NCBI GenBank assembly: GCA_016182655.1
Contig: JACPGB010000008.1
Coordinates: forward strand, 1 to 64,000
Reading direction: 5' to 3'
Length of the DNA stretch: 64,000 nucleotides
Source: Deltaproteobacteria bacterium
GTDB taxonomy: Bacteria > Desulfobacterota > GWC2-55-46
The notes beneath the pieces are model-generated. The model made no database searches and was not told where the DNA came from. It saw only the letters and a list, made by a program, of their open reading frames with translations. Made by a program: the position numbers and the translations under genes. Shown one piece after another: positions 9,697 through 13,068 of the stretch (within the stretch, counting starts at the first letter, position 1; the number at the start of each line of letters is the position of its first letter).

Positions 9697-11250
9697 ATGA
9701 TCCCTAAAAGACCTTCTTTCCTAAAACTAAGCCCCGAGGCCAAGGTCGGACTTTTCGTCCTCCTCGGGATAGTCATCCTCGTCTACATGTCGCTGCGTCT
9801 CGGCGGCATCAAGTTCGGCAGGGCCGAGGGGTACACCCTCCACGTCTATTTCGATTCCGCCGCAGGGCTCGACAAGAACGCCTCGGTACGCGTCGCCGGC
9901 GTCGAGGTCGGGCGCATCAAGGACATACGCCTCAAGGACAGCAAGGCCCACGTGATACTCGAAATAAAGCCCGATGTCGCCATAGGCAGGGACTTTACCG
10001 CGGTCCTTACGACCAAGGGCCTCTTGGGAGAGAAGTACCTCGAGCTCGTCCCCGGCGCCCCGAACGCGCCGTCTTTAAAAGAGGGCGAGGAGATAACCCA
10101 CACAAAGTCGTACGCCGACATGGACAGGCTCATAACCGTCTTGAGCGACGTCTCCGACGACGTCAAGGAGGTCACCGAGTCGCTGAGCAAGGTCCTCGGC
10201 GGCGACGAGGGCGAGGCCACGCTCAGGAACATCGTAAAGAACGTCGAAGAGATGTCCTTCAGGGTCAACCACTTGATCGCGAAGAACGACGAGCAGGTGG
10301 GGAACGTCCTCCGTAATCTGGATGAGTTCACCGGCATGCTGAAGACCGAGGGGCCTGGCGTCACCTCGGAACTCAAGCTCGCGATAAAGAACCTGAACGA
10401 CGCGCTCGTCAAGACCTCTGACAACCTGAACCAGATGATCACCGAGAACCGCGGGAACCTCAAGGAAGGTGTCGAGAACCTCAAACTCGCCTCCTTAAGC
10501 CTCCAGCAGGCCATGGACACGGTCAACAAGGTCACCAGGGAGATCGGCCCGCAGATAAGCGACACCACGACATCGGTCGGGTCGATTGCCAGGAAGATAG
10601 ACAAGGGCGAAGGGACGCTCGGGAAACTCATCAACGACAAGACCCTCCACGAGGACATAGACAAGACGGTAAAGGGCATCAACAACTACATCGCCAAGGC
10701 AGAGTCCTTCCGCACCTTCATCGGCTACAGGGGTGAGTTCCTGTTCGACGAGCGGGACGTGAAGAGCTACTTCACCTTGCGCATACAGCCCAAGGCCGAC
10801 AAGTTCTACCTATTCGAGGTAGTCGACGACCCGAGGGGCAAGAAAAAGAAAGAGACGAAGGTATCGACCGTCGACGGAGTCACAACGACGCGCGAGGAGA
10901 CGACGACCTCGGACGCCATAAAGTTCTCGGCCCAGATAGCCAAACGGTACAAGGGCGTGACGTTCAGGGGCGGCATCATCGAGTCCGCCGGCGGCGCGGG
11001 CATCGACTACCACATATACGGCGACAGGCTTAAACTATCTCTCGAGGCCTTCGACTTCGACAAGGACGCGAACCCGCACTTGAAGGCCTCCTCGACCTTC
11101 TTCCTCAACAAGTTCTTCTTCCTCACAGCCGGGTACGACGACTTCGCGTCCAAGGTCGGGCTCAAATCCGCCTACGCGGGCGTGGGCTTCCACTTCGAGG
11201 ACGAGGATATAAAGTATCTCCTTACCTCCGCGCCTTCGATGTCGTTCTAA
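9697..11250 (+). CDS. mlaD: MlaD-like MCE protein with C-terminal beta-strand (outer-membrane barrel-like) domain
   Basis: A 517-residue MCE protein, far longer than E. coli MlaD (about 180). One TM helix at about 17-35 anchors it in the inner membrane. The MCE domain follows at about 43-120 (AGLDKNASVRVAGVEVGRI, GLLGEKYLELVPG). A long helical/coiled-coil stretch fills about 130-335. Residues 340-517 form some ten alternating amphipathic strands (for example GIDYHIYG, RLKLSLEAFDF) and end in phenylalanine, as outer-membrane barrels often do. A single-chain bridge across the periplasm is therefore likely, a design reported for Veillonella MlaD. This would explain the lack of mlaA and mlaC nearby. 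No strong Shine-Dalgarno is seen. Confidence 0.85.
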   Translation: MIPKRPSFLKLSPEAKVGLFVLLGIVILVYMSLRLGGIKFGRAEGYTLHVYFDSAAGLDKNASVRVAGVEVGRIKDIRLKDSKAHVILEIKPDVAIGRDFTAVLTTKGLLGEKYLELVPGAPNAPSLKEGEEITHTKSYADMDRLITVLSDVSDDVKEVTESLSKVLGGDEGEATLRNIVKNVEEMSFRVNHLIAKNDEQVGNVLRNLDEFTGMLKTEGPGVTSELKLAIKNLNDALVKTSDNLNQMITENRGNLKEGVENLKLASLSLQQAMDTVNKVTREIGPQISDTTTSVGSIARKIDKGEGTLGKLINDKTLHEDIDKTVKGINNYIAKAESFRTFIGYRGEFLFDERDVKSYFTLRIQPKADKFYLFEVVDDPRGKKKKETKVSTVDGVTTTREETTTSDAIKFSAQIAKRYKGVTFRGGIIESAGGAGIDYHIYGDRLKLSLEAFDFDKDANPHLKASSTFFLNKFFFLTAGYDDFASKVGLKSAYAGVGFHFEDEDIKYLLTSAPSMSF

Positions 11251-11824: not shown

Positions 11825-11910
11825 TTGCTTAAAACGGCTGAAATCATTGAGAAATCCGGCGTCGGCGTCGCCTTTGACATAGGCACGGGGCCTCTGTCTC
11901 CCTTCCGGAG
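11825..11910 (+). pseudogene. Out-of-frame 5' fragment of the DUF4445/RACo-like gene
   Basis: From a TTG at 11825 the sequence reads MLKTAEIIEKSGVGVAFDIGT, clearly the phosphate-1 motif of an actin-like ATPase, then runs out of frame after 11887 and stops at 11921. The adjacent frame continues the same protein family from 11911. Relative to RACo-like proteins about 13 nt appear to be missing between DIGT and the NPQ motif (my recollection of family spacing). This suggests a real deletion rather than one miscalled base. Confidence 0.6.
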
Positions 11911-13068
11911 ATGCGCGTCCTGAAGGATGCCGCCTGCCCCAATCCTCAGTCGAGGTGGGGGCGGGATGTCCTATCGAGGATAACGGCGGCTATGAAAGAC
12001 CCCGCGCTTATCGATGAGATGTCCGGGGCAATCGTTACCGCCTGCAACTCCCTTATAAGGGAGCTCGTGCCCGTTGGGACGGCGGTAAAGGAGATAACGG
12101 CGGCGGGAAACCCGGTAATGGTCCACCTGTTGCTTAAGGTCTCGCCCGAGCCGCTCTCAAAGGTCCCATACAGGCCCGCGTTCGTCGAGGCAAAGAGGAT
12201 CAAGGCGGGCGAACTCGGCATCGAGTGCAAGGACGCTGACCTTTACGCCTTCCCGCTCATAGGCGGGTTCGTCGGCGGGGACGCGGTGGCTGTCGCGCTC
12301 GCGCTCAAACTCAAGGAAGAAAAAAAACCGGCGCTCGCCATAGACATAGGCACGAACAGCGAGATAATGCTCGCCTCGAACGGCTCCCTCTTTGCCACAT
12401 CCGCCGCGGCCGGCCCCGCATTCGAGGGCGGCGAGATAAAAGGCGGCATGACTGCCGCAAACGGCGCGATAAGCGGCGTCAAGATACACAATGAGGCGGT
12501 CTCGCTCGAAGTCATCGGCAAAGGGACCCCGAAAGGCATCTGCGGCTCCGGGCTCGTATCAGCGGTCTCGGAGCTTTTAAAGGCCGGGATCATCGAGCGG
12601 AACGGGCGGATACGGTCCCGCGACGAGGTCTCGACTAACCTCTCCAACAGGATAAGGATCGAGGCCGACGGCAATGCGTTCGTCCTCTACAAAGGGGCGA
12701 AGACAGAGGTTCTGCTCACGCAGTCCGACATAAGGGCGCTTCAGACCGCGAAGTCCGCGATAAGGGCCGGGATAAACCTGCTCCTTAAAAAGGCCGGGAT
12801 AGGCCCGGGTGATTTGGGCACAGTCTACATAGCCGGGGCCTTCGGGTCCAACCTCGACCCCGAGGGGCTGAAAGAGATAGGCATACTCGACCCGCTCTGG
12901 CTTGGAGCTTTAAAGACCGTCGGGGACGCGGCGCTCGAAGGCGCGGTGCTGGCGCTCGACGATAAGGGAAAGAAAGAAGCCGAGACGCTTGCGCGGGAAT
13001 TCAAATTCGTCTCTCTCTCGGGCTCCGCGCACTTTGAGAGGGAGTTTATAGCCAATCTCGGGTTTTGA
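11911..13068 (+). CDS. DUF4445 / RACo-like ASKHA ATPase, N-terminally damaged
   Basis: A 385-residue open frame matching the middle and C-terminal part of corrinoid-activating RACo/AcsV-type ATPases (DUF4445). Visible motifs are NPQSRWGRDVLSRI near residues 11-24, ALAIDIGTNSEIML near 142-155 and TVYIAGAFGSNLDP near 309-322. RACo normally has an N-terminal [2Fe-2S] domain and uses ATP to reduce inactive Co(II) corrinoid. Here the ferredoxin domain is absent and the first ATPase motif lies out of frame just upstream. The ATG at 11911 is probably an internal methionine, so the product may be non-functional or begin by frameshifting. purH follows after 33 bp. Confidence 0.7.
   Translation: MRVLKDAACPNPQSRWGRDVLSRITAAMKDPALIDEMSGAIVTACNSLIRELVPVGTAVKEITAAGNPVMVHLLLKVSPEPLSKVPYRPAFVEAKRIKAGELGIECKDADLYAFPLIGGFVGGDAVAVALALKLKEEKKPALAIDIGTNSEIMLASNGSLFATSAAAGPAFEGGEIKGGMTAANGAISGVKIHNEAVSLEVIGKGTPKGICGSGLVSAVSELLKAGIIERNGRIRSRDEVSTNLSNRIRIEADGNAFVLYKGAKTEVLLTQSDIRALQTAKSAIRAGINLLLKKAGIGPGDLGTVYIAGAFGSNLDPEGLKEIGILDPLWLGALKTVGDAALEGAVLALDDKGKKEAETLAREFKFVSLSGSAHFEREFIANLGF

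Follow-up and report, generated by a model that had tools for sequence, protein, structure and literature searches.

A barrel-type long MlaD in a deltaproteobacterium as a putative phospholipid bridge without MlaA and MlaC

Known MCE transporters and the mlaEFD locus

The closest described system is the MlaEFD transporter of Veillonella parvula, where a transmembrane helix, an MCE domain, a long helical zone and a ten-stranded barrel are combined in one MlaD protein (Grasekamp et al. 2023, PMC10665443). The same authors predicted barrel-type MlaD proteins in a clade of Proteobacteria and argued for the ancestry of this design. In Escherichia coli, the MlaFEDB-MlaC-MlaA system has an MlaD of 183 residues without a tunnel or a barrel and uses MlaC and MlaA. 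Periplasm-spanning MCE tunnels, as we propose here, are formed by PqiB, LetB (YebT) and the mycobacterial Mce1. PqiB and LetB have three to seven tandem MCE domains, and Mce1 is a heterohexamer that shares one small six-strand barrel.

We analysed a stretch of 64,000 nucleotides (the window) from a deltaproteobacterial genome. The window carries a three-gene mlaE-mlaF-mlaD operon, where mlaE and mlaF lie directly upstream of a real mlaD gene with an ATG start that encodes a long MlaD (Table 1). This gene order was repeated across the homologous loci examined. The inner membrane helix, the MCE domain and the long helical zone that the sequence-only reading had described in MlaD were all recovered.

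Table 1. Features of the mlaEFD operon and of the long MlaD in the window
Feature	Position	Strand	Evidence
mlaE, permease of MCE ABC transporter, 256 aa	8004..8774	+	PF02405, E=4e-84
mlaF, ABC ATPase, 248 aa	8842..9588	+	PF00005, E=3.6e-34
Long MlaD, 517 aa: TM helix, MCE domain, helical zone, predicted C-terminal 10-strand barrel	9697..11250	+	
Inner-membrane helix, residues 13-35	9733..9801	+	AF2 helix, low local confidence; hydrophobic run LFVLLGIVILVYMSL
Single MCE (MlaD) domain, residues 45-120	9829..10056	+	PF02470, E=9e-21
Helical zone, residues 142-335	10120..10701	+	AF2, low confidence; hydrophobic periodicity
Predicted ten-stranded barrel domain, residues 339-501	10711..11199	+	AF2, pLDDT 81; VIA-align
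Beta-signal-like end of strand 10, YAGVGFHF, residues 493-500	11173..11196	+	Pattern in 30/31 non-redundant relatives
C-terminal helix DEDIKYLL and tail, residues 503-517	11203..11247	+	Helix in both AF2 models; motif in 29/31

The host genome (2.9 Mb, 97.6% complete) was searched for the missing shuttle components. Neither mlaC nor mlaA turned up in the whole assembly, while E. coli and Caulobacter worked as controls for both, which bears out the claimed absence of the two genes beyond the neighbourhood of the operon. The host therefore does not have the E. coli-type six-component Mla system, which includes MlaC and MlaA. Since LptD and Omp85/BamA are encoded, the host is very likely an LPS-type diderm.

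Four features of a barrel-type long MlaD were found together: an N-terminal transmembrane helix with a single MCE domain, a helical region of at least about 150 residues, a predicted ten-stranded C-terminal fold and an mlaEFD operon in a genome without mlaA and mlaC. The V. parvula system has the same plan. The protein in the window is longer (517 residues, compared to 419 in V. parvula), as is its helical zone (about 200 residues compared to about 150), and it differs in the DDLKxLL helix that follows the last strand; helical extensions in some proteins are mentioned by Grasekamp et al. The identified neighbours of the operon are alr, a RACo-like gene and purH, whereas in V. parvula they are tolC and tamB. 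The host is a deltaproteobacterium and Veillonella is a Firmicute, and the two barrels are likened by their predicted architecture, not by sequence homology. MlaE, MlaF and the MCE domain are homologous to those of E. coli. In contrast to PqiB and LetB there is exactly one MCE domain, and unlike in Mce1 a complete barrel is predicted for each chain.

The RACo-like gene downstream is broken in the window (11840-11920), where the N-terminal ATPase motif VAFDIGT is in another frame than the remainder, which starts from 11911. RACo-like relatives, such as the one in locus L004 (4407-5666), are one uninterrupted frame. The break may be either a true frameshift or an assembly error.

We consider it probable that the protein is a barrel-type long MlaD that forms, with MlaE and MlaF, a conduit to an outer membrane barrel and serves as a phospholipid bridge without MlaA and MlaC. 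Alternatively, the barrel might anchor a periplasm-spanning transporter of another substrate, such as hydrophobic nutrients or sterol- or hopanoid-like lipids, comparable to the mycobacterial Mce systems. Substrates do differ among MCE systems, and the Mycobacterium-type MCE family TIGR00996 scored slightly above the MlaD family TIGR04430 (127 and 114 bits, both below the cut-off). However, the operon has the MlaEFD form with a single MCE gene instead of six mce genes, and the identified neighbours are not lipid-catabolic. We regard a substrate other than phospholipid as unlikely.

The C-terminal barrel domain

The C-terminal part of the long MlaD (residues 324-517) was modelled with AF2 from an alignment of 18 homologues; the residue number is that of the model plus 323. 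Ten strands and a terminal helix were predicted with a mean pLDDT of 81 and a pTM of 0.72, in agreement with the roughly ten amphipathic strands of the sequence-only reading. The predicted domain is a ten-stranded barrel fold, and it looks like a membrane barrel and not like a soluble beta domain that is unable to close. Searched alone against Pfam and NCBIfam, the domain matched no family. A sequence search of the PDB returned relatives of the MCE domain and no solved barrel-type MlaD; the one match to the C-terminal part (E=0.095) was at chance level.

The model was then compared with known structures by VIA-align, and the nearest structures were ten-stranded outer membrane barrels and a designed transmembrane barrel. 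OpcA was the closest (Z 16.7, 3.1 Å over 155 residues), followed by a Legionella porin (Z 16.5, 4.6 Å over 160) and Pla (Z 15.5, 4.8 Å over 158), with OmpT also near the top. The designed ten-strand transmembrane barrel TMB10_163 was matched with Z 14.9 and 2.6 Å over 133 residues, and the top Foldseek match was likewise a designed transmembrane barrel (E=4e-4).

Between strands 3 and 4, a loop of about 20-25 residues that is rich in Thr and in Lys/Glu was observed (window 10840-10915, residues ~382-406). Its presence is conserved and its sequence is variable, making it a candidate surface loop.

The faces of the strands were analysed with 48 homologues, and the near-invariant positions were taken from 31 non-redundant homologues. 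The alternation along the strands was 0.62, compared to 0.35 +/- 0.08 in shuffled sequences (p=0.001). One face is apolar and the other polar, with charged residues making up 0-2% of the apolar face in 8 of the 10 strands. On the polar faces 16 positions are nearly invariant; they include R345, E347, Q364, Q413, R424, D437, E450 and six glycines. Such conserved charges and glycines are to be expected in the interior of a membrane barrel, and it would be strange to find them on the surface of a soluble barrel. The conserved polar face thus fits the polar interior of a membrane barrel. Since the mean conservation was equal for the polar and the apolar faces, we take this as support and not as proof.

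The end of strand 10 follows the pattern [FYW]xGx[GS]-Phi-x-Phi, which resembles the beta-signal of outer membrane proteins; the single relative without it is stopped earlier by a stop codon. Strand 10 is followed by the conserved helix [DE][DE]DLKxLL. The sequence-only reading had pointed to strands ending in phenylalanine. F517 is indeed the last residue of the protein, but it is conserved in only 7 of the 31 non-redundant relatives and was rejected as an outer membrane protein signature. The aromatic residue that resembles those of outer membrane proteins is F500, the last of strand 10 and within the motif. From the two faces and the beta-signal-like end we infer that the C-terminal barrel is of a membrane type.

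A different explanation of the same fold is a soluble periplasmic lipid-binding barrel, similar to nitrobindin or the lipocalins, which would act as a tethered substitute for MlaC and take the lipid from the tunnel. Soluble barrels were indeed among the VIA-align matches, namely BFA1 (Z 12.7), DUF3598 (Z 12.6) and nitrobindin (Z 11.8), so the fold by itself is no proof of membrane insertion, and MlaC is often absent from genomes with a barrel MlaD. However, these matches ranked below the outer membrane barrels, the conserved end of strand 10 resembles a beta-signal, the polar face has its conserved charges and glycines as if it were a buried interior, and the equivalent barrel of Veillonella fractionated with the outer membrane (PMC10665443). 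A soluble barrel is therefore quite improbable. Another reading takes the C-terminal strands for disordered segments or remnants of beta-hairpins, such as those of most long MlaD proteins, which have no complete barrel (PMC10665443); it is hardly credible given the ten well-predicted strands and their strong conservation over a phylum.

Distribution of the barrel MlaD and its relation to MlaC and MlaA

Homologues of the long MlaD were found in 20 loci, mostly at full length, with 32-97% identity in the best segment. They come from uncultured Deltaproteobacteria (GWB2_55_19 and its kin) and from Desulfarculales, among them the cultured Desulfocarbo and Dethiosulfatarculus. Two homologues from draft metagenome genomes (L007:4062-4592 and L010:4443-5675) have an in-frame stop within the barrel region; these stops are probably assembly or sequencing errors. 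Neither a tblastn search of plasmids with the barrel nor a scan of viral contigs brought up a distant barrel.

The barrel domain was present in 53 of the 59 genomes of the class and in 53 of 297 in the phylum. The barrel MlaD belongs to the regular equipment of an entire class of uncultured deltaproteobacteria. Over the whole phylum, 14 of the 53 genomes with the barrel had mlaA or mlaC, compared to 159 of the 244 without it (Fisher p=4e-7, a statistic that ignores kinship). We therefore considered whether the barrel MlaD excludes mlaC. Within the class this was rejected, because the barrel was equally common with mlaC (9/10 genomes) and without it (44/49), and so there is no strict replacement of MlaA/MlaC; the exclusion remains a trend across the phylum. 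These class counts likewise ignore kinship and include some fragmented drafts.

The MCE proteins of the class fall into three sizes: about 470-610 residues with the barrel, about 300-390 residues with helices only, and 150-204 residues in the E. coli-like form. mlaC was found in 10 of the 59 genomes, and MCE frames below 210 residues were limited to exactly these 10. In 8 of them the short mlaD was 0.5-1.8 kb away from mlaC; in the other two (G300 and G321) the two genes lie on separate contigs of the draft, and the short frame could be truncated. A barrel MlaD was never encoded on an mlaC contig in the class genomes. This pattern of size and linkage indicates that the short MlaD pairs with MlaC and that the barrel MlaD goes separately. 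Because it is never on an mlaC contig, the barrel MlaD appears to be independent of the MlaA/MlaC shuttle.

The host genome has a second MCE operon (L023:3024-6463, contig C12) with mlaE, mlaF, a barrel-less MlaD of 340 residues with a helical tail and a TPR protein. The gene of this MlaD overlaps that of the TPR protein, which has a lipobox-like signal. Upstream of the operon, the open reading frame 2039-2917 encodes a small protein that is like an outer membrane protein and has no Pfam match. In the second operon a separate lipoprotein possibly completes the bridge, and this barrel-less MlaEFD could do the work of the barrel system in the same genome.

A putative phospholipid bridge

The long MlaD would be the substrate-binding and conduit subunit of the three-gene MlaEFD lipid transporter. 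By analogy to the solved MCE hexamers, six copies of MlaD most likely assemble their MCE domains into a ring that sits on the MlaE-MlaF ABC transporter of the inner membrane. The helices of about 200 residues would then bundle to a hydrophobic tunnel across the periplasm, of about 300 Å if each is one continuous helix. The hydrophobic periodicity of the helical zone was 102 degrees per residue, with a power of 138 compared to 102 for the 99th percentile of the shuffle maximum, as is expected if the helices pack along a single apolar stripe. In 39 relatives the zone has 166-269 residues, which at 1.5 Å each corresponds to about 250-400 Å and spans the periplasm if the helix is continuous. The full-length AF2 monomer was poor (pLDDT 53 overall and about 30 in the helical zone); since the zone is unreliable in this model, we make no claim on the geometry of the tunnel.

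At the other end, the predicted ten-stranded barrel of every chain would insert into the outer membrane, so that the barrels hold the mouth of the tunnel there. The barrels are more likely anchors than a lipid pore, because ten strands make a barrel too narrow to let a phospholipid through, as was stated for Veillonella (Grasekamp et al., PMC10665443). Phospholipids may pass between the outer and the inner membrane with neither MlaA nor MlaC, and by analogy to the solved MCE hexamers and the Veillonella protein the MlaF ATPase would power this; we assume a retrograde flow by analogy to the Veillonella mutants. The one-protein lipid bridge of the sequence-only reading is partly supported by our results: sequence, fold prediction and gene content speak for it, and the hexamer, the location in the outer membrane, the tunnel and the transport are what we infer.

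A long MlaD with a barrel is not new in kind, as the architecture has been published for Veillonella. The suggestion that its occurrence in a proteobacterium newly supports an ancestral design is weakened, since Grasekamp et al. (2023) already report the clade and argue for the ancestry; a literature search for later work on the barrel domain in deltaproteobacteria found nothing. What is added here is the genotype pattern across a class and the signature of a beta-signal and a C-terminal helix, a useful quantitative support of the published model. We know of no solved outer membrane complex with a ring of six complete ten-stranded barrels. That six such barrels ring one lipid tunnel, and that the deltaproteobacterial barrel arose independently of the Firmicute one, is a tentative and rather unlikely proposal. 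If true, one-protein lipid bridges would have evolved more than once.

It is not settled how phospholipids pass through the periplasm, and the MlaA/MlaC shuttle of E. coli may be the exception. The class is a natural experiment, where some genomes have only a barrel or a helix-only MlaD and others have the barrel together with a separate operon of short MlaD and MlaC. That the two types were never found at the same locus supports the barrel MlaD as a complete system, and MlaC as a partner of the short MlaD only. The cultured relatives Desulfocarbo and Dethiosulfatarculus carry the same protein, which makes the idea testable.
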